Below are positions 181 through 59,834 of a stretch of 64,000 nucleotides of DNA, one piece after another. Made by a program: the position numbers and the translations under genes. Under the pieces are notes generated by a model. It was not told the origin of the DNA. It worked only from the letters and a program-made list of their open reading frames with translations, and made no database searches. This stretch comes from Nitrospirota bacterium (GTDB taxonomy: Bacteria; Nitrospirota; Thermodesulfovibrionia; SZUA-242): positions 1 to 64,000 of the forward strand of contig JACRHH010000015.1 in NCBI GenBank assembly GCA_016212095.1, in the 5' to 3' direction. How positions within the stretch are numbered: the stretch's first letter is position 1; each line of letters begins with the position of its first letter.

Positions 181-300
181 AAGCCCCGAAGGGGCGGAAT
201 ATTATAAGCCGGGGCGTAAACCCCGGTGAAACTCAGTGTCGCCACGCTTTATAACCGGGGCTTACGCCCCGGTCTGCATTATTCCGCCCTTACAGGGCTT
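181..300. repeat. Large imperfect palindromic intergenic repeat
   Basis: Arms at about 181-226 and 255-300 are inverted copies of each other over roughly 45 bases, with a few mismatches. Each arm holds smaller palindromes (GCCCCGAAGGGGC; CCGGGGCGTAAACCCCGG). The transcript would fold into a long hairpin. It looks like a REP- or MITE-type dispersed element, not a single terminator. The rest of 141-546 shows no supportable gene; the short open frame at 226-450 runs through the right arm and has no recognisable protein. Confidence 0.75.
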
Positions 301-33268: not shown

Positions 33269-35173
33269 TCAGGCCCCCGCCGGTTTCAAGATAATCTTTC
33301 TTGCATCCCCAATTCGCATGGTAATTCGCGCGGAATCCAGATGTTCCAGAAACGGCAACGCGAATTTGCGCGTCGTGCCGACAAGGTCGCGGAACTCGGC
33401 AACGGTCATATCCGGCATCTCCGGCTTTTCGGCCTGAAATTTCCGAAGTAGCGCGATCATCTCGTCGTACCGCCCGGTTGTAATATACACCGCGTCGGTG
33501 ATGCGCTTCAGCTTTCCCTCCACGGCCAGCAGTTTCAGCACGTCGGCCATGCGTTTTTCGGTCATCTTCATCTCGTCGGCCAGTTCCTTCAATAGCGGCG
33601 GCTGGAATCCGCCCGCGCCTATCTTGTCAAGAACTCCCTTTTTGGTTGCCTCATCGGTTTCTGTGAGCGCCACCTTGTGGCCAGCCGAACGCACAAACTC
33701 CTGCTCCACAGCAACCTCGCGAGTAAGCGCAAGCAGTCCGCCGAATATTTTGGGCGGAAGCCCCGGAAACATGCCGCGCAGCTCTTCCTTGGCCATGCCC
33801 GGCTTCATCGGATTTGCGCGGTGGAATTCCCGCAGCCGCGTAACCACCCTCTCCCGGAAGCCTGTAACGGCGGACGAATGAATGAACGCGTCTTCCACCG
33901 GCAGAACAGCGCCGCTTTTCTTGAGCGAATCCACTGCCGCGGCAATCGCCGGAATGTCGGCCTTTATCCAGCCCTCAAGCCGGGCAAGCGTCATGCCGCG
34001 AATGCCCTCGCGCGAGATTTTGGTCTCAATCGCCCGCGCCAGATTGCCGGAAGCGTAAACTTCGAGGTCGGCGACGCCGTCTTTTCGCTTGCGCCTTCGC
34101 GGCGAAGGATCTAGCACCACGCCGCCGCCAAGCGTTGCAAGCGGCGAAAACCGGCGGATAACGAACCTGTCGCCCGACATCGCGACAACCGGGTTGTCGA
34201 TACGGAATTGACAGAACGCCTCTTCGCCCGGCTTCAGCGCGTCGGTGTCGTACAGCAGGATTCTGCCCACGGTTTCCGCCGTGCCTATATGGAAATGAAC
34301 GGGCGACATGGTTTTCAGCGGCTGCACGTCTTTCAGCAGGCGCACACTGGCGTCGATAACCGTGGTTGATTCAAGCCGTCCGGGCGAAACAAGCGTGTCG
34401 CCGCGCGCGATGTCTTCCTTTTCGATGCCCTGTAGATTCACCGCAACGCGCTGTCCGGCGCGGGCCGTGCGTATAGATTTCCCGTGGCTGTGCAGGCCGC
34501 GCACTTTGCACTCGGTGTCGCGCGGAAGGATTTCTACCGATTCCTCAACCGACAGCTTTCCGCCGATTGCGGTTCCGGTTACAACCGTGCCAAAACCTTT
34601 CAGCGTGAAAACACGGTCTATCGGAAGCCGGAAGATGCCGCGCTCAGATTTCACCGGAGTTTCGAGCGCCATTTTGTGGATTGTTTTTTTGAGCGTGTCA
34701 AGGTTGTCGCCGGTTTTCGACGAAACCGCCACGATCTCCGCGCCCTCCAGAAACGTTCCGGCGATGAAGGCGCGCACGTCGTCGGTCACAAGCTCAAGCC
34801 AGTCGGCGTCAACCATGTCGCTTTTGGTGAGCACGACGATGCCGCGAGCTATTCCAAGCAGGTCGCAGATGGCCAGATGCTCGCGGCTCTGCGGCATCAC
34901 GCCCTCGTCCGCGGCGATCACCATCGCCACGATGTCTATGCCGCCCGCGCCCGCAAGCATGTTTCGCACAAGCCGCTCGTGGCCCGGAACATCCACTATG
35001 CCGATGGTGAGGCCGTCGTCGAACGCCAGATCGGCAAACCCAAGCTCGATGGTTATGCCGCGCTCTTTTTCCTCCTTCAGGCGGTCGGGATCGGTTCCGG
35101 TTAGCGCCTTTACCAGAGAGCTTTTGCCGTGGTCTATATGCCCGGCGGTTCCGAGGATGACGTATCTGGCCAT
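33269..35173 (-). CDS. selB: Selenocysteine-specific elongation factor SelB
   Basis: A 634-residue EF-Tu-like GTPase that delivers Sec-tRNA to UGA codons by binding the SECIS hairpin. GTPase motifs are [10 protein letters not shown] (G1), [22 protein letters not shown] (G3) and TKSD (G4). The last 250 residues are winged-helix repeats that bind SECIS RNA. With selA in the window this shows that the organism decodes UGA as Sec, which matters for the UGA-containing gene at 59400. It heads a run of closely spaced genes (crcB, DUF190, cytochrome, nagZ). Confidence 0.96.
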
Positions 35174-39693: not shown

Positions 39694-41121
39694 TTACTTC
39701 AGGCGTTCCACGCAGGCTGCCCGATCCCCCAACGCCACGGCAACAGCCCCAACCAATGCCTGTATTTCCCTGTCCGCAATAGTCCGCGCGTCAAGCAGGA
39801 TCCGGTCTTCCTTCACGCGCACGATCACGGCGGTTTCCCCGGCGCGAAGTTTTTCCTCAAGCGCCGCCGCCGACATGTTTGCCGGAGAGATCGAGACCGC
39901 CCATGTTTTCATCTCGTGTTCGGGAAGCGAGCCGCCGCCGGCCTGCGACGCCTCGCGCGCTATTTTCACGTCCGCCGCCCCGCCAACGGCCTTCGCAAGC
40001 CGCTTTGCGATAATTGCGGCGCGGCGTTTCAGCGTTTCATCCGACACGGTGAGCATGGACAATACCGGGAGTTCGCGTATCGCCTGCTCCTCGTCGCGGT
40101 AGAGCATCAAAACGGCTTCGAGCGCGGCAAGCGTCATTTTGTCCACCCTGAGCGCGCGCGTGAGCGGATGTTTCTGAATTGACTGAATTAATGCTTTCCG
40201 TCCGACGATGATTCCGCCCTGCGGGCCGCCAAGAAGCTTGTCGCCGCTGAATGTGACCACGTCAACTCCGGCCTCGACAACCTCGCGCACTGTCGGCTCG
40301 CCGCCAATTCCGTATTTTGCAAGATCGATTATGGAGCCGCTGCCAAGATCGTACATCACCGGAACGCCGCGCTCGCGGCCAAGTTTCACCAAATCGGCAA
40401 GCGGCGCTTCCTTCGTGAAGCCGATTATGCGGTAGTTGCTAGGATGAACTTTAAGATACAGCGCGGTTTCCGGGCCGGTTGCCGCCTCGTAGTCGCGCAG
40501 ATGCGTCTTGTTCGTGGTTCCCGCCTCGCGCAGAATTGCGCCGCCCGCGCGCATTACATCCGGCACGCGAAACGCCCCGCCGATTTCGATAAGCTCGCCG
40601 CGTGAAACCACTACCTCGCGCCCGGCGGCAAGCGCTGAAAGGCATAAAAGCACGGCTGCGGCGTTGTTGTTCACCACAATAGCGTCTTCCGCGCCGGTAA
40701 TCTCGCGCAGAATGCCCACAATGTGGCTGTAACGCTTGCCGCGTTCGCCTCGCTCGATGTCGTATTCGAGGTTCGAATATCCGCGTGATACCTCTTTCAC
40801 ATGATCCAGAATGGCGTCCGACAGCGGCGCGCGGCCAAGATTGGTGTGCAGTATGACGCCGGTTGCGTTTATCACGGGGCGCAGATGCGGGCGGGATTTT
40901 TTGGCAAGGCGCATGGAGACGCCATCGGCGATAGTCACGCTGTCGAAGGCAGCATTACTGTCCAAAATCCCCCTGCGAGCGTCATCAATCGCCTCGCGGA
41001 CAGACGCGACAACAAGGCTTCGCGGATGGCGCGCAAGCCACGCCGCGCCCTCGTCGGAGCGCAGCATCTCATCCACCGAGGGAAGCGCCGCAAGTTTCTT
41101 TTGTATCGTTTTGTCAGCCAT
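39694..41121 (-). CDS. selA: L-seryl-tRNA(Sec) selenium transferase SelA
   Basis: A 475-residue PLP enzyme that converts Ser-tRNA(Sec) to Sec-tRNA(Sec) using selenophosphate. Conserved parts are RPVINATGVILHTNLGRAPL, SNLEYDIERGERGKRY, VNNNAAAVLLCLSALA and the PLP-lysine site TFSGDKLLGGPQGG. The length is normal. selB lies 4.5 kb downstream in the same orientation, separated by TA, radC and restriction-modification remnants. selD and selC were not seen in the window. Confidence 0.97.
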   Translation of the reverse strand: MADKTIQKKLAALPSVDEMLRSDEGAAWLARHPRSLVVASVREAIDDARRGILDSNAAFDSVTIADGVSMRLAKKSRPHLRPVINATGVILHTNLGRAPLSDAILDHVKEVSRGYSNLEYDIERGERGKRYSHIVGILREITGAEDAIVVNNNAAAVLLCLSALAAGREVVVSRGELIEIGGAFRVPDVMRAGGAILREAGTTNKTHLRDYEAATGPETALYLKVHPSNYRIIGFTKEAPLADLVKLGRERGVPVMYDLGSGSIIDLAKYGIGGEPTVREVVEAGVDVVTFSGDKLLGGPQGGIIVGRKALIQSIQKHPLTRALRVDKMTLAALEAVLMLYRDEEQAIRELPVLSMLTVSDETLKRRAAIIAKRLAKAVGGAADVKIAREASQAGGGSLPEHEMKTWAVSISPANMSAAALEEKLRAGETAVIVRVKEDRILLDARTIADREIQALVGAVAVALGDRAACVERLK

Positions 41122-53236: not shown

Positions 53237-54037
53237 ATGAAGAAACTCGGCATTACACTTAAGGACGTCAACGCTGTCTATTCCGGCCCGGAGGGCAAGC
53301 TCTGGGAGCTTATAATGGGCGAGCAGATTCATGTTGGCGGGTTCGCCCATTCGATGATTCTGGCACAGAAGGCGGGCATTGGCGAGGGGCAGAAGGTGCT
53401 CGATCTATGCAGCGCGCTTGGCGCGGGGCTGCGGTTTCTGGTTGGCAACTTCAAGGTGCAGGGTTTCGGCCTCGACGGAACCGAACACATGTGCGAGGAG
53501 GCCAAGCGCCGAGCCGCGCGCGACGGCATGGCCGAGGCCATCGAGTTCAAGCTTGGCGACGTGACCAGCATCCCGTGGGCCGACTCGCACTTCGACGTGG
53601 TTTGGGGCGAGGACGCCTGGTGCTACGTTTCCGATAAGGACAAGCTGATCGGCGAAGCCGCGCGCGTGCTTAAAAAAGGCGCAACCATCGCCTTTACAGA
53701 CTGGGTTGAGGGCAAGGCCGGACTGAGCGACGCCGACGCGGAGCGCATCAACACGTTCATGAAATTTCCGTACATGGAGAGCCAGAATGGCTACGAATCG
53801 CTCCTTGCAAAACACGGCTTCGACGTGAAGGTATCCGAAGACCTGACAGCCGAATTCGCTGATTTCATAGAGCTTTACCTGCAAATGGTATCGAAGCAGC
53901 TCACCTTCGACGCCTTGAGAATTATCGGCTGGAACGCCGAAATGATGCAGGCCATCGGCGGCGAGATGAGCTTCATGCTGGGCTGCGCCCGAAGCGGCGG
54001 GTTCGGCAGGACACGAATTGTAGCCGTAAAGAGATGA
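53237..54037 (+). CDS. Class I SAM-dependent methyltransferase
   Basis: A 266-residue Rossmann methyltransferase. AdoMet motif I is VLDLCSALGAGLRFL (the usual GxGxG loop is SALGAG), motif II-like FGLDGTEHMCEEAK, motif IV FDVVWGEDAWCYVSDKDKL and TIAFTDWVEG. It resembles sarcosine/dimethylglycine- or sterol-type small-molecule methyltransferases. It is the first gene before the dehydratase/DCCP run, 60 bases upstream, and may share its transcript; the substrate is unknown. Confidence 0.82.
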   Translation: MKKLGITLKDVNAVYSGPEGKLWELIMGEQIHVGGFAHSMILAQKAGIGEGQKVLDLCSALGAGLRFLVGNFKVQGFGLDGTEHMCEEAKRRAARDGMAEAIEFKLGDVTSIPWADSHFDVVWGEDAWCYVSDKDKLIGEAARVLKKGATIAFTDWVEGKAGLSDADAERINTFMKFPYMESQNGYESLLAKHGFDVKVSEDLTAEFADFIELYLQMVSKQLTFDALRIIGWNAEMMQAIGGEMSFMLGCARSGGFGRTRIVAVKR

Positions 54038-54097: not shown

Positions 54098-55375
54098 TTG
54101 TCTGATTCCGGTTTCATAAGAAGCGCCTGCCGTAAACGTTATCAGGAAGAGATTGAAGCGCTGGGCAGTTGGAGGCAATCCGGACGAAAATGCGCCGGAT
54201 TCACCTGCAACGCATTTCCACCCGCGGTTATTGCCGGGCTTGGCATCCGGCCCTTGCGCCTGCTCTGCGGCGCGTCGTCCGACGCCGAAAGCGCTGGCGA
54301 GCGCGTGGCGCGGGCCGACGTATGCCCGCATGTGAAGTGCCTGCTCGGAAATGTTTCCGCGTCAGCTTCGCTTCACTCTACGGTCGATATCTGGATCGGT
54401 CTTTACACCTGCGACCAGATGCGGCGCGGATTTCAGGTGCTTTCCGCAAACCTTGGGCGCGAGGTTCATCCGATCCAGCTTCCGGCCACGCGCGCGACGG
54501 AATCCGCCGAATATTACGCCGGTCAGGTTCGGCGTTTTGTGGCGGATGCCGAGGCGCATCACGGTTTGCGCTTCGATCCGGAGGCGGCGCTTGCATGGCA
54601 TCGTCAGTGGGCCGAAGCGGCTGACGCGCTGAAAGCAGCCGCCCTGTCGCCGGAAATTTCGCCGCTTGATCTGCACGAGATGTTTCATCTTTTTTTCATT
54701 GCGCGGCCTTTTGGGTTAGCCGATTTTTTCAAAAACCTTATTGCAAACGCGCCGCGCTTCAAGCCGTCGCGCCGGGTTGTGCTTGCCGGAAGCCCTCTTG
54801 CACATGAGGATACGGCGGTTATCGCCAGGCTTGAGGCAAGCGGAATCGGCATTGTTCCGCTGAACTGCACGGGCCTGAACGCAGTTGAGTTGCCGGGCGG
54901 TGTAATTGATGAAGACTACACTCCCCCCTTGCCCCGTCCATTTGCGGGATACGCGGCTGGCGTGCCAGCGCTTGGTGTAATTGATGAAGACCACACACCC
55001 CCCTTGCCCCCCTCATTGAGGGGGGTGGCGAAGCCGGGGGGAGCCGGAAACAGGGCGAACACGCAGGTTTGCCCGAATGATTTGAAAATGGAATTAGTCG
55101 GCTCGCTTGCCTTGCAGGCGTTTCATCTTCCGCCGTGCATCCGCGCCCGCCCGAACACGCCTGTGTACGAGCGCATTGGCCGGGTTATCGCCGAAACCGG
55201 CGCGTCGGGATTAATCGTGAAATGCCTGAAATTCTGCGACCAGTGGTACACGGAGCGCGAGAGAATGCGCCGCTCGTTCGACATTCCGGTGCTGGTCTTC
55301 GATTCCGACTACGCTCCGGGCGGCATGGACAGGCTCGAAAGCCGGATAGACGCATTTATAGAGATGCTGCCATGA
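54098..55375 (+). CDS. 2-hydroxyacyl-CoA dehydratase family protein (HgdB/BcrC-like) carrying an in-frame repeat
   Basis: A 425-residue member of the 2-hydroxyacyl-CoA dehydratase D-component superfamily, which holds [4Fe-4S] clusters through conserved Cys. Visible are CNAFPPAVIAGLGIRP near the start, ADVCPHVKC, YTCDQMRRGF, and the C-terminal KCLKFCDQWYTERERMR with VFDSDYAPGGMDRLESRIDAFIEM. At about residues 267-320 there is an insert with two copies of GVIDEDYTPPLP-like sequence, derived from a DNA repeat. The start is a TTG; no ATG lies in frame before residue 138, so the true start is uncertain. Its stop overlaps the next start (ATGA). The reaction is unknown. Confidence 0.72.
   Translation: MSDSGFIRSACRKRYQEEIEALGSWRQSGRKCAGFTCNAFPPAVIAGLGIRPLRLLCGASSDAESAGERVARADVCPHVKCLLGNVSASASLHSTVDIWIGLYTCDQMRRGFQVLSANLGREVHPIQLPATRATESAEYYAGQVRRFVADAEAHHGLRFDPEAALAWHRQWAEAADALKAAALSPEISPLDLHEMFHLFFIARPFGLADFFKNLIANAPRFKPSRRVVLAGSPLAHEDTAVIARLEASGIGIVPLNCTGLNAVELPGGVIDEDYTPPLPRPFAGYAAGVPALGVIDEDHTPPLPPSLRGVAKPGGAGNRANTQVCPNDLKMELVGSLALQAFHLPPCIRARPNTPVYERIGRVIAETGASGLIVKCLKFCDQWYTERERMRRSFDIPVLVFDSDYAPGGMDRLESRIDAFIEMLP
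54901..55045. repeat. Repeat-derived insert inside the dehydratase-like gene
   Basis: Two near copies of TGTAATTGATGAAGAC (54901 and 54981), each followed by runs of C and CTTGCCCC, lie 80 bases apart. The second copy continues into a C-run/G-run palindrome (CCCCCCTCATTGAGGGGGG) and GTGGCGAAGCCGGGGGGAG. The block is translated without a stop and interrupts the family alignment. Confidence 0.7.
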
Positions 55376-56823
55376 ACGACGCTGCAAGGCGGCTTACGGT
55401 GATGGAATGGGAGGAGCGGATGCCGCTCGTGCCGGAGGCGTACCGCGCCGAATGCACCGTGCTGCGCTCGCTTGTGCCGGGCGGGGTGCGCTATCTGTTC
55501 AGCCCCTACGAATACTCGTGCCGGGGCGACGCGCTTCTTCGCCGCCTGAAGTTCGACGGCTCGCTTGCCGCGCTCCGGCTCTGGGCGTTCATCTTCAGCG
55601 AGAAAGACCGGCTGTTTCTGGCGAAGGAAAAAGGCTGGAAAATCATCGCCGCCATGAAAGACCTCGGCCCCGTGCCGGTGCTTGCCTACGCGCTGCCTGA
55701 GGCGCTCACCTTCTACGCCGACGAACTCTGGTGGGCTCCGTGTTTTGCCGAGGAGCCGCATCTGCTTGACGAGGCGGCGAAACTCGGCGCGGGCGAAGAG
55801 CTTTGCTTCGTGCGCGCCGCGCTTGGCGCGATGATCACGCTCGATTATTTTCCGGCGCCCGATCTCTGCATCGCCGGAGTGGGCGCATGCTGCGACGATT
55901 TTTCGGCGGTGATGCAGCTTATCGAATCGATAGGCTATCCGGTGCATTGGTGGGAAATGGCGGCGCGGTTCGATCTGTTATCACCAACCACGGAAATGTT
56001 TCTCCGCACCCCAGGCGGCGGCTCGATGTATCAGGAGTCGGCGCGGGAATTCGTGGCCGGCCAGTTGCGCGGCGTGGTGAAGCGGCTGGAGGAGCTTTCC
56101 GGCGTGACGATCACCGAGGAGATGCTCGAAAAAAGCCGCACGGTTTTCAACGAGATTCGCGGGAAAATCTCCACGCTCCGCGATCTGGTCTATGGCGCGA
56201 AGAATCCGCCGCTTCCGGGGCTTGAGATGATGCTTGCCGAGTTCATCGCCATACACGCATGTTCCGAGCCGGAGGAAGCCGTCCGCGTGCTTGACGATCT
56301 GTTGCAAACCGTGTGCGAGAGACTTGCGAACAACACTTCTCCCCTTTCGCCGGAGGTTGCCCATTCGGCCAATCTGGCCGAACCGGTACGCATCTTCTGG
56401 GCCACGCCGCCTACAGATGCTTCGCTCATCACGCTGCTTGAGGACTTGGGCGGATGCATAGCCGGAACCGAATACATGATCAGCCACGCGTTTTACCGGA
56501 TGGCGACGGACAGGCCGGTTGTGGAAGCGGTTGCCGAAAACTGCATGGACGATCCGATGACCGGAAGCGCGGCGTTCCGGGCGAGGCGAATAGTGGATGG
56601 CGCGCGAAAGTACGGGGCCGAGGGCGTGATCATATCCGGCATATCCGGCGCGAGCCACTGCCCGTTCGACGAGGGCGCGATAACCGAAGCGGTGATGAAA
56701 GAGCTTGATATTCCGGTGCTTTCGTTCGATGTGCCGTACTCGCCGGGCAGGTTGAGCGAGCAGATCGCAAACCGGATGCAGGGTTTTATCGACATGATTC
56801 GCCAGCGCCGCGCCCCCATATGA
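55372..56823 (+). CDS. 2-hydroxyacyl-CoA dehydratase family protein (BcrB/HgdA-like)
   Basis: A 483-residue protein from the ATG at 55372, four bases inside the previous gene; a longer frame from 55135 is not supported. The family pattern shows in FSPYEYSCRGDALLRRL, GVGACCDDFSAVMQLIESIGYPVHWWE, ENCMDDPM, SGASHCPFDEGAI and the closing LDIPVLSFDVPYSPGRLSEQIANRMQGFIDMI. Conserved Cys could bind an iron-sulfur cluster with the partner subunit. The TGA stop at 56821 is followed in the same frame by sequence leading directly into the next gene, with a hairpin 11 bases after the TGA. Confidence 0.78.
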   Translation: MNDAARRLTVMEWEERMPLVPEAYRAECTVLRSLVPGGVRYLFSPYEYSCRGDALLRRLKFDGSLAALRLWAFIFSEKDRLFLAKEKGWKIIAAMKDLGPVPVLAYALPEALTFYADELWWAPCFAEEPHLLDEAAKLGAGEELCFVRAALGAMITLDYFPAPDLCIAGVGACCDDFSAVMQLIESIGYPVHWWEMAARFDLLSPTTEMFLRTPGGGSMYQESAREFVAGQLRGVVKRLEELSGVTITEEMLEKSRTVFNEIRGKISTLRDLVYGAKNPPLPGLEMMLAEFIAIHACSEPEEAVRVLDDLLQTVCERLANNTSPLSPEVAHSANLAEPVRIFWATPPTDASLITLLEDLGGCIAGTEYMISHAFYRMATDRPVVEAVAENCMDDPMTGSAAFRARRIVDGARKYGAEGVIISGISGASHCPFDEGAITEAVMKELDIPVLSFDVPYSPGRLSEQIANRMQGFIDMIRQRRAPI

Positions 56824-56898: not shown

Positions 56899-57996
56899 AT
56901 GTCGCGCGAGGTGGACATCGCACGGGAGGCCAAAAAAGCCGGGAAGGGCGTTGTCGGCATCTACTGCGAATTCACGCCGCGCGAGCTGATTCTGGCGGCA
57001 GGCGCGGTTCCGGTCTGCCTCTGCGGAGCCAATCCGCGCACGATTCCGGCAGCCGAAACGGTTCTGCCGGCTAATCTATGCCCGCTTATAAAATCATCGT
57101 TCGGCTACATCCTTACCAACCGATGCCCGTTTTTCATGGTGACGGATCTGGTAGTTGCCGAGACCACATGCGACGGCAAGAAGAAGATGTACGAGCTGAT
57201 CGCCGAAAAGAAGGCGGTTCACGTTCTGGAACTTACGCAGAAGGTTGACGAGGCCGAGGCGTTTGGCCATTGGCTGGCGGAAGTGCGGAAATTGCGGGCA
57301 AAGCTGGAATCGGTTTACAGCCGAAGCATATCCGACGACGATCTCCGCGCCGCCATACGCGCCATGAACCGCGAACGGGCGCTTTTGCGGCGTGCGTTCG
57401 AGCTTGGCATGAACGAACCGGCGGTTGTCACCGGAAAGGAACTCTCCGAGCTTCGATACCGGCTTTCGGGCATTGACGATCACCTGAAGATGCTGGAGGT
57501 GTTTATTGCAGACATCGAGGCGCGCAAGGCCGCGGGCCGGTTTGCCGCGCCCGCCGGTGCGCCGCGCGTGATGCTCACCGGATGCCCGACAGCGCAGGGA
57601 ACCACAAAACTTATTGAAATAATTGAGGAATGCGGCGCGGTTGTGGTGGCGCAGGAAACCTGTTCGGGCTTGAAGCCGCTCGACATTCAGGTTGACGAAG
57701 ACGGCGATCCGACAGAGGCTATCGCGCGGAAATACTTCCGCCTGCCGTGTTCCTGCATGACCCCGAACACCGGGCGTACCGAGCTGATCGAACGGCTGGC
57801 GCACGATTTCAGGGTTGACGCCGTGATCGATCTTGTGTGGCAGGCCTGTCATACATACAATATCGAGGCGTATCTTGTCGAGCGATTCGTGCGCGACAGG
57901 CTTGGGCTTCAATATCTCAAGGTGGAAACAGACTATTCCGATTCAGACCGCGAGCGGCTGAAGGTGCGGGTGCAGACAGTTTTGGAGATGCTTTAA
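56899..57996 (+). CDS. Double-cubane-cluster anaerobic reductase (DCCP, YjiM-like)
   Basis: A 365-residue protein of the DCCP/YjiM family. Family DCCP carries an [8Fe-9S] double-cubane cluster and reduces small molecules at very low potential when driven by its ATPase. Matching motifs are GIYCEFTPRELILAAGAVPVCLCG, LPANLCPLIKSSFGYI, VAETTCDGKKKMYELI, LTGCPTAQGTTKLIEIIE, CSCMTPNTGR and QACHTYNIEAY with a closing ETDYSDSD. The in-frame codons before the ATG (AITPAEYFRTS) also look coding, so the start may be further up, for example the ATT at 56869. The natural substrate is unknown. The matching activator is at 58583. Confidence 0.9.
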   Translation: MSREVDIAREAKKAGKGVVGIYCEFTPRELILAAGAVPVCLCGANPRTIPAAETVLPANLCPLIKSSFGYILTNRCPFFMVTDLVVAETTCDGKKKMYELIAEKKAVHVLELTQKVDEAEAFGHWLAEVRKLRAKLESVYSRSISDDDLRAAIRAMNRERALLRRAFELGMNEPAVVTGKELSELRYRLSGIDDHLKMLEVFIADIEARKAAGRFAAPAGAPRVMLTGCPTAQGTTKLIEIIEECGAVVVAQETCSGLKPLDIQVDEDGDPTEAIARKYFRLPCSCMTPNTGRTELIERLAHDFRVDAVIDLVWQACHTYNIEAYLVERFVRDRLGLQYLKVETDYSDSDRERLKVRVQTVLEML

Positions 57997-58001
57997 CCGG
58001 C

Positions 58002-58313
58002 ATGATTACCTTGAAATGGATTTGCGAAAGGGTGCGGAAGCAGGAGTACTATTATTCGCAGCATGGCGATCAGGAGCGGCAGAACGACAACCTCGCGCTA
58101 GCCGAGATCGAGGAAGCACTGCTTTCGGGAAGAATGCTTGAGCAATATGAGGATACCGGAAGAGGTTATAGCTGCCTTGTTGCCGGTTTCACCGACAACG
58201 GAAAGCCTGTTCATGTGGTTTGTGGAAAACGAGGCAATTGGATGGTTATAGTGACCGTATACATTCCGGCTCCGCCGAAATTCATCAGCCCGTACGAGAG
58301 AGGTTTGGGATGA
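58002..58313 (+). CDS. DUF4258 family protein, probable toxin of a DUF4258/YgiT pair
   Basis: A 103-residue protein with ITLKWICERVRKQEYYYSQHGDQERQ, the typical 'His-A-x-x-R' DUF4258 start, and YSCLVAGFTDNGKPVHVVCGKRGNWMVIVTVY. DUF4258 proteins are RelE-like-fold toxins. The next gene encodes a YgiT-type zinc-finger antitoxin and overlaps its stop by four bases. The pair is inserted between the DCCP gene and its activating ATPase. Confidence 0.85.
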   Translation: MITLKWICERVRKQEYYYSQHGDQERQNDNLALAEIEEALLSGRMLEQYEDTGRGYSCLVAGFTDNGKPVHVVCGKRGNWMVIVTVYIPAPPKFISPYERGLG

Positions 58314-58564
58314 ATCGCGTTTGCAACTTTTGTGGGAACAAGAACGTGTCCAGCAAGCTGGTTCAGTATGTTTACAAGCATGATGACCGGTTTCTGGTTG
58401 TAAACAACGTGCCGTGCGAGGAGTGCGAATACTGCGGAGAACGATATTTCCGGGCGCATGACCTGAAACGAATCGAGAAGGATTTTTTTGCGATTTATGA
58501 GCATGGGAAGAAAGCCGCAAGAAAAATCAGCGTTCCGGTTGAGGAATTCGTTGAGCTTTCATGA
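58310..58564 (+). CDS. YgiT-type zinc-finger antitoxin
   Basis: An 84-residue protein from the ATG at 58310. The N-terminal half carries two CxxC pairs (VCNFCG and ECEYCGE) for zinc and the family pattern LVVNNVPCEECEYCGERYF. The C-terminal half (DLKRIEKDFFAIYEHGKKAARKISVPVEEFVEL) binds the toxin. It lacks the DNA-binding HTH of full MqsA, as is usual in this short class. Confidence 0.88.
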   Translation: MNRVCNFCGNKNVSSKLVQYVYKHDDRFLVVNNVPCEECEYCGERYFRAHDLKRIEKDFFAIYEHGKKAARKISVPVEEFVELS

Positions 58565-58582: not shown

Positions 58583-59395
58583 TTGATCACATGCGGCATT
58601 GACATAGGCTCAACATCCATAAAGGCGGTGCTGTTCGACGGCGCGCAGATAATCGATGCGAAGGTGGACAAAAGCGGCTCGCGGCCTGCCGACAACGCGC
58701 GCGGGCTTTTTCACCGGATACTTGAATCGGGCGGCGTGGCGCGCGACGACGTCGGGCGGATTGTGGCAACCGGATATGGCCGGAACTATTTTAAAGAAGC
58801 CGACGCAGTTTCGTCCGAGATTCTCTGCCACGCAAGCGGCGTTGCCTACATGTTCCCGTCGGCGCGGACGGTTATAGACATCGGCGGGCAGGATTCCAAG
58901 ATCATCAGCATCGACGCATCCGGCAGGGTGGCTAACTTCGCCATGAACGACCGTTGCGCCGCCGGAACCGGCAAGTTCATAGAGATGGTATCGTTGATGC
59001 TGGATGTTCCGCTTGGACGCATGGGCGCTGAATCAGAGCCAGGAACCGATGCGTGTGAAATATCGTCGATGTGCGCGGTGTTTGCCGAATCGGAGATAAT
59101 AGGGCTAACCCAGAGCGGCACGCCGGTTGACAGCGTGCTTCGCGGCGTTTTCCGCTCTGTTGCGCGGCGGACGCTCTCGATGACCGGGAGAATCGGCCTT
59201 CAGCCCGATGTTGTATTCACCGGCGGCGTGGCCCTGAACACCGGAATTGCGCGGGCGCTGGAACAGGAAACCGGCCACCGGCTGATGATTCCGTCCGATC
59301 CGCGCATCACCGGGGCGCTTGGCGCGGCGATAATCGCGGCGTCGAAGGCGGCGGCTCGCCGCCCGGTTTCCGAAAGCATTGTTGGAGCGAGGTGA
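58583..59395 (+). CDS. Acyl-CoA dehydratase activase / DCCP ATPase (BadF/BadG/HgdC family)
   Basis: A 270-residue ASKHA ATPase that injects electrons into its reductase partner. The phosphate loop is GIDIGSTSIKAVLFDG; Cys ligands for the [4Fe-4S] cluster bridging the dimer are in NDRCAAGTGKFIEM and SSMCAVFAESEI, and GGVALNTGIARALE closes the fold. The start is a TTG at 58583. In E. coli the yjiL-yjiM genes encode such an ATPase and DCCP pair, so this activator most likely serves the DCCP protein and perhaps also the two dehydratase-like proteins. The next gene starts five bases after its stop. Confidence 0.93.
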   Translation: MITCGIDIGSTSIKAVLFDGAQIIDAKVDKSGSRPADNARGLFHRILESGGVARDDVGRIVATGYGRNYFKEADAVSSEILCHASGVAYMFPSARTVIDIGGQDSKIISIDASGRVANFAMNDRCAAGTGKFIEMVSLMLDVPLGRMGAESEPGTDACEISSMCAVFAESEIIGLTQSGTPVDSVLRGVFRSVARRTLSMTGRIGLQPDVVFTGGVALNTGIARALEQETGHRLMIPSDPRITGALGAAIIAASKAAARRPVSESIVGAR

Positions 59396-59399
59396 GCAG

Positions 59400-59834
59400 A
59401 TGGATAATAAATTTACAATTCCGACCGGCCTGACTGAGAAGAAACACTCCGGCAGCAACGATGCCGGAACCGGCATGAAACCCTCAGGAATGACGCCGGT
59501 GGAAATCAGCGGGCCGGTCTGCATGATCAACCCCGCGCCCGGCGGGAAGGGTTCGTCGCTTGCGGGGGGCGGTGCGGTAGGCTCGGCCTTCATGAGCGCG
59601 TTTCTCTGAAACATCAACATCGTCCTGGCCGGTCTTGGCCTGGGAAGCGTTTCGGCGGGCGCGTGGCTCGCCAAATACAGGTTCTTCTTTCTGCCTCTCA
59701 CGGCATCGCTGCTGGCGTATTCGTTCTATCGCACATACACGGCGAAATGCTATGTTCCGCGCCGAAACAAGGTTATACTCTGGGTGACGGCAACGGTGAG
59801 CATAGGGCTTACGGCCTATTCGATTTTGAAGTAG
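59400..59834 (+). CDS. MerT-like membrane protein, predicted selenoprotein (in-frame UGA = Sec70)
   Basis: An ATG at 59400 with AGGTGA close by opens a frame that meets TGA at 59607 and, if read as Sec, continues to TAG at 59832, giving 144 residues. The part after the UGA (NINIVLAGLGLGS, GAWLAKYRFFFLPLTASLLA, YSFYRTY, then a Cys and VILWVTATVSIGL) aligns with the mercuric transporter MerT from its Cys-Cys site onward. The UGA falls on the second Cys of that pair. Codons after the UGA keep the local G/C third-base bias. A hairpin with a GGUCU loop follows. selA and selB are in the window. The substrate is unknown; MerT kinship suggests a soft metal or metalloid. Conventional calling would give only a 69-residue stub. 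Confidence 0.8.
59607..59643 (+). promoter_or_regulatory. Candidate bacterial SECIS element
   Basis: The UGA at 59607-59609 is followed by a hairpin with left arm CCTGGCC (59624-59630), loop GGTCTT (59631-59636) and right arm GGCCTGG (59637-59643). One U-U mismatch lies four pairs below the loop. The loop starts 21 bases after the UGA. E. coli fdhF has an apical GGUCU loop 18 bases after its UGA and an unpaired U in the stem, so spacing and loop agree closely. SelB would bind here. Confidence 0.75.

Follow-up and report, generated by a model that had tools for sequence, protein, structure and literature searches.

The 64,000-nucleotide stretch of Nitrospirota DNA analysed here (the window) contains a frame resembling the mercuric transport protein MerT that is interrupted by a UGA. 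This locus raises the question of whether the codon is a stop or is read as selenocysteine (Sec) and, in the latter case, of what a Sec residue might do in a membrane protein of this type.

The UGA codon and its decoding

The Sec-MerT coding sequence (59400..59834, + strand) starts at ATG 59400, meets the UGA at 59607-59609 and closes with a TAG at 59832-59834; reading through the UGA gives a product of 144 residues with Sec at position 70, as described in the original prediction. That prediction had also counted 75 codons after the UGA; the frame does continue open, and the sense codons between the UGA and the TAG number 74. A ribosome-binding-like site (GAGGTGA, 59389-59395) precedes the start and overlaps the stop codon of the activase gene upstream. 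The peptide spanning Sec70 reads SAFMSAFLUNINIVLAGLGLGSVSAGAWLAKYRFFFLPLTASLLAYSFYRTY. Hydropathy flagged residues 54-92 and 124-144 only, and the AlphaFold model of the protein (pLDDT 52, 8-row alignment) was too uncertain for topology.

Homologs were sought among 61 relatives and in genomes of the class (231) and of the phylum (396). The protein used as a single query against genome contigs gave no match; matches were obtained there with an alignment query. The searches define a Sec clade of 12 members from 12 genera (the window and 11 other Nitrospirota genomes), which forms one side of a branch with support 98/94 in a tree of 27 proteins. A scan of viral contigs, plasmids and PDB sequences found no relatives of Sec-MerT. 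Each of the 12 genes carries a single UGA, always in the same column, and none of them has Cys, TAA or TAG there. The prediction had been staked beforehand on homologs not ending at this position; all 12 read on, for 70-85 residues. The UGA was also correctly placed at the second Cys of the Cys-Cys pair in the first transmembrane helix (TM1) of MerT, since the aligned residues are Cys-Sec in a sister branch and Cys-Cys in distant MerT proteins, including the other MerT-type matches that were read.

Standard annotation would call a stop at this codon, and the UGA might be a true stop, a sequencing error, the mark of a pseudogene or a Trp codon in this host. We regard such explanations as very improbable. 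A stop or an error is hard to reconcile with a UGA that recurs at this column in 12 genomes from as many genera and has conserved coding sequence on either side across the clade, and the Trp reading is opposed by the aligned residue, which is Cys and not Trp, and by the upstream activase gene, which ends in TGA. The stop reading is further opposed by the fixed codons of a downstream SECIS hairpin and by a complete Sec machinery, both described below.

A predicted SECIS apical hairpin (59623..59645, + strand) was delimited with RNAalifold, by the fixation of its codons and by a synonymous-shuffle test. It has 8 pairs and a six-base loop (59631-59636) that starts 21 nt after the UGA, the distance first proposed, and the loop begins with RGU in all 12 members of the clade. 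Codons +6 and +7 after the UGA are CTG and GCC in 12/12, and codon +8 is AGT (Ser) or GGT (Gly) in all, against a background use in the clade of 27% for Leu CTG, 32% for Ala GCC, 12% for Ser AGT and 16% for Gly GGT. At these hairpin codons (CTG GCC RGT), synonymous pairs were identical in 166/166 cases vs 587/1449 (41%) elsewhere in the alignment of the gene; these counts are inflated by relatedness, but the same sequences nonetheless vary freely on either side of the hairpin codons. The mean hairpin energy was -10.2 kcal/mol, in comparison with -4.5 kcal/mol in synonymous-codon shuffles, and 11 of the 12 members fell within the best 6% of such shuffles. The hairpin is thereby conserved in the orthologs, in agreement with the prediction, its codons being fixed across 12 genomes and its fold stronger than in the shuffles. 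In dinucleotide shuffles with a single-sequence fold, the z-score was +0.67, not significant, and this unremarkable value is a point for the stop reading. The SECIS motif was absent from all 16 of the Cys-Cys MerT genes compared.

The two Sec genes reported to lie in the window were confirmed: selB, encoding the Sec-specific elongation factor (33269..35173, - strand; TIGR00475, 363 bits, cut-off 242), and selA, encoding Sec synthase (39694..41121, - strand; TIGR00474, 621 bits, cut-off 268). The prediction also hinged on selC and selD, and both are present in the genome. The tRNA-Sec, with anticodon UCA, is located on another contig, and selD lies at G000:C31:24107-25033 (L069); because it has one in-frame TGA, selD probably encodes a selenoprotein itself. 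Rfam gave another tRNA-Sec-like match, at C5:13412 (50.6 bits), but it was discarded because ARAGORN calls no tRNA there. Among the Sec-MerT genomes, selB scored above the cut-off in 11 of 12; G202 gave only a weaker elongation-factor match, which may reflect assembly loss.

We are thus highly confident in the prediction that SelB and tRNA-Sec decode UGA 59607 as Sec under the direction of the downstream SECIS hairpin. By each of the computational criteria applied, Sec-MerT is almost certainly a selenoprotein.

Relation to MerT and to known Sec-containing MerT proteins

The window protein matched the NCBIfam model merT_RC607 (NF033560) with E=6.4e-10 and 39 bits (cut-off 130) and MerTP_fusion with 2.5e-4. 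It had no Pfam match; its closest relative, 61% identical, matched PF02411 with E=3.9e-5 and 24 bits vs a gathering score of 32.9. The proposed resemblance to MerT was confirmed at these sub-cut-off scores, and on sequence grounds Sec-MerT is clearly a divergent member of the MerT superfamily. Because its score lies far below the NCBIfam MerT cut-offs, routine annotation is likely to miss it, as had been anticipated, and probably truncates the gene.

Classical MerT (PF02411, NF033560) and the Sec clade share the features of a small membrane protein, the first-helix Cys-Cys position and a YR..F..T..FLG.AFYRTY region. On the other hand, the Sec clade has Sec for the second Cys, lacks the loop Cys pair, stands outside mer operons and scores under all curated cut-offs. 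The MerT loop Cys pair between helices 2 and 3 was found in 0/12 Sec clade members vs 12/15 of the compared Cys-Cys homologs. The first-helix Cys-Cys is itself altered, to Leu-Sec in the window protein and to Cys-Sec in six relatives, and the first Cys of the pair is absent from half of the clade. The Cys-Sec branch comprises the members from G001, G102, G104, G105, G112 and G202, with the motif FCUQ; Leu-Sec-Asn is found in five members, that of the window among them, and Ile-Sec-Gln in G043. Proteins of the Leu-Sec branch are extended at the N-terminus, where a GxxC motif is conserved (Cys41 in the window protein); except in G234, they also have a Cys in the loop preceding the last helix (Cys117 in the window protein). 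The sole Cys of the G043 protein lies near its start. No mer-operon linkage of the Sec clade was found in the 12 genomes. Only two of these genomes, G102 and G104, have a MerA above its cut-off, and there it lies next to a different MerT, of the Cys-Cys type. As judged from gene content, the Sec clade is thus distinct from the mer-operon MerT in these genomes.

A Sec-containing MerT was already known, as reviews list one and NCBIfam holds another, NF045683. The former, a 'putative mercuric transport protein' (PF02411; ABB16073.1), is a published predicted selenoprotein (PMC9312934 Table 1, PMC13188914, PMC2398784) that likewise belongs to the MerT family and whose Sec was likewise predicted from a UGA/Cys alignment. 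Compared by description, its motif is C/SxxU according to the review, whereas the Sec clade has A/V/L/I at position -3. NF045683 (MerT/CopZ fusion-like heavy metal transport selenoprotein) also combines a MerT-type domain with Sec; Sec-MerT differs from it in being single-domain, without the CopZ-like domain. This model matched the clade member of G001 weakly (E=1.6e-4), gave no match to the window protein and exceeded its cut-off (375 bits) in 0/392 phylum genomes.

In other Nitrospirota (G429, G350, G400, G407, G274 and others; L084-L089), NF045683 matched sequences with one internal stop, mostly TGA, with TAA in G350. Such matches may represent either a MerT gene next to a CopZ gene or additional Sec proteins.

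The single-domain, all-Sec clade lacking the MerT loop Cys pair and standing outside mer operons appears to be new: no description of it, or of its two gene contexts, was found in the accessible literature (excluding Haft & Gwadz 2023 and Haft & Tolstoy 2025). Nearly all selenoproteins have Cys homologs of greater abundance (PMC13188914), and for this reason the fixation of Sec in a transporter-type membrane branch, with no Cys version found, is unusual.

Genes around Sec-MerT

In the window, Sec-MerT closes a gene cluster on the + strand. Its first gene encodes a SAM-dependent methyltransferase (53237..54037), followed by two DCCP-like paralogs of the HGD-D family (PF06050), both below the NF040772 cut-off (54098..55375, 105 bits; 55372..56823, 51 bits, with the start of the latter set by comparison with L030). 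Next come a double-cubane-cluster-containing anaerobic reductase, DCCP (56899..57996; NF040772, 449 bits, cut-off 350), and an acyl-CoA-dehydratase-type activase of the BadF/HgdC family (58583..59395; TIGR00241, 243 bits, cut-off 125; PF01869), which probably reduces the double-cubane protein at the expense of ATP. G084, G166 and G234 have this cluster too, Sec-MerT included, and in G234 Sec-MerT is its first gene. The cluster methyltransferase was found at E<=1e-50 in 4/396 phylum genomes, namely that of the window and these three, and in all four Sec-MerT is in the cluster.

Between DCCP and the activase, the window carries a DUF4258 gene (58002-58313) and a YgiT-type zinc-finger gene (58310-58564), which resemble a toxin-antitoxin pair. 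Neither gene is present at the corresponding place in L030, so the pair looks like an insertion into the cluster. Elsewhere, an Acido-Lenti-1 RNA match was recorded at window positions 254-299 (RF01687, 47.3 bits).

Other neighbours recur in the remaining genomes. YedF lies immediately upstream of Sec-MerT in G043 (151 bits, cut-off 110), and a YedF DsrE-domain gene occurs close to the cluster in G084 and, as judged by eye, in G166 too. LysR_Sec_metab, the Se-associated LysR regulator, is a neighbour of Sec-MerT in G234 and lies in its vicinity in G084, with scores over the cut-off. In G166 and G084, Sec-MerT is followed by genes of cytochrome c assembly and ResB-like genes, and an ArsR-family gene lies upstream of it in G112.

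In members of the Cys-Sec branch, Sec-MerT stands between two other selenoprotein genes, TsoA-like and MbdU, which encode proteins unrelated to it. MbdU (NF045648), over its cut-off and with two in-frame TGA codons, lies directly downstream in G102, G104 and G112. In G202, its position is taken by a related DUF5714 gene with a further in-frame TGA; in this locus (L074, 6419-7700) the DUF5714 gene is followed by an in-frame GGGCQPU (CxxU) and a second TGA, and the predicted product would be a multi-Sec protein other than MbdU.

In G102, G104, G112, G166 and G190, a TsoA-like gene that itself contains a UGA is located at most about 7 kb from Sec-MerT. Every copy of this winged-helix protein that spans the site has one TGA (V-E-x-U-I-K-E-C); its loci are L033 (where 1165-1434 is the part after the UGA), L092, L093, L096, L101 and L102-L111. 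The family scored 102-108 bits against NCBIfam TsoA (NF045695), below the cut-off of 170, and it has U-I-K-E-C where TsoA has LULAxC; it has the look of a diverged TsoA branch that has probably not been curated. The identities of MbdU and TsoA rest on the NCBIfam names and on the 2026 review PMC13188914, which lists both as predicted selenoproteins from Haft & Tolstoy 2025.

A short remnant of the Sec-MerT C-terminus, HLSMLYGTTALCIGMIVFTLFYR, was observed in L095 (G195) at about nt 400-500, and possibly in L097 (G079). In L095 it sits between a broken TsoA-like gene and MbdU, which suggests that Sec-MerT was lost from that TsoA-like/MbdU operon.

Possible roles of Sec-MerT

The original prediction held that Sec serves as a soft-metal ligand in a MerT-type transporter. 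Its selenoprotein part stands and it is plausible that Sec binds or transports a soft metal or metalloid, whereas the mer-like features fell away, given the absence of the loop Cys pair, the presence of MerA in only 2/12 genomes and the non-mer neighbours. We lean modestly towards a model in which Sec-MerT is a Sec-decoded MerT relative whose Sec would be a soft metal or metalloid ligand at the membrane, with a job unlike that of the mer-operon MerT. At the membrane, Sec70 and a thiol close to it (in the Cys-Sec branch the vicinal Cys; in the window protein Cys41 or Cys117) would capture a soft metal or metalloid species and hand it to partners in the cytosol. The candidates for this part are, in the window, the methyltransferase with the ATP-driven set of double-cubane reductases and, in the Cys-Sec branch, the metal-binding selenoprotein MbdU. 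The metal role fits the MerT ancestry and the MbdU/ArsR neighbourhood. A metal hand-off of MerT type is opposed by the missing loop Cys pair and by the lack of the first Cys in half of the clade. Furthermore, Se-Hg bonds are very tight and the release of mercury could be slow, which counts against a metal role, as does the lack of mer-operon linkage; YedF, LysR_Sec_metab and DCCP would suit Se metabolism too. Instead of mer functions, the conserved neighbours suggest Se metabolism, low-potential reduction driven by ATP, methylation, and selenoproteins that bind metals.

Alternatively, what Sec-MerT handles at the membrane might be selenium itself (selenide, methylselenide or other reduced Se/S species), in a route of Se uptake, recycling or detoxification that also involves the methyltransferase, the double-cubane reductases, YedF and the Se-linked LysR. 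We consider this less likely, but a serious alternative. YedF or DsrE-domain genes in G043, G084 and G166 and LysR_Sec_metab in G234 and G084 speak for it, as do the DCCP in the cluster, DCCP genes being provisionally tied to Se metabolism (PMC10418091), and the statement in reviews that a high-affinity transport system dedicated to Se is not known (PMC9312934, PMC13188914). The MerT ancestry and the MbdU/ArsR context favour metals, and Se users in general may simply group their Se genes together. Moreover, because only 12 of several hundred genomes carry it, Sec-MerT is not a core Se-uptake protein. A dedication of the all-Sec clade to Se (selenide or methyl-selenium), acting with the SAM methyltransferase and the ATP-driven double-cubane trio, is more doubtful still.

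Most characterised selenoproteins are redox proteins (PMC9312934), and Sec-MerT could be a membrane redox partner in which Sec and a nearby Cys form a selenenylsulfide and pass electrons to or from, for example, the cytochrome-c-assembly or double-cubane modules, with no metal being moved. The vicinal Cys-Sec in half of the clade and the cytochrome c assembly and ResB-like genes of G166 and G084 are in line with such a relay. Nevertheless, the other half of the clade has no vicinal Cys, with only a Cys near the start in G043, and Sec-MerT has neither a thioredoxin-like fold nor a CxxU motif; we give this possibility little weight.

Altogether, the Sec clade is tied to two defined clusters, one with the methyltransferase and double-cubane reductases and the other with TsoA-like and MbdU. 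If the dedication to Se were true, the all-Sec clade would be a candidate for the dedicated Se transport step that is missing in bacteria. The two clusters lead to testable hypotheses on what Sec may do at the membrane of anaerobic Nitrospirota: the binding of toxic metals or metalloids, or the handling of Se.
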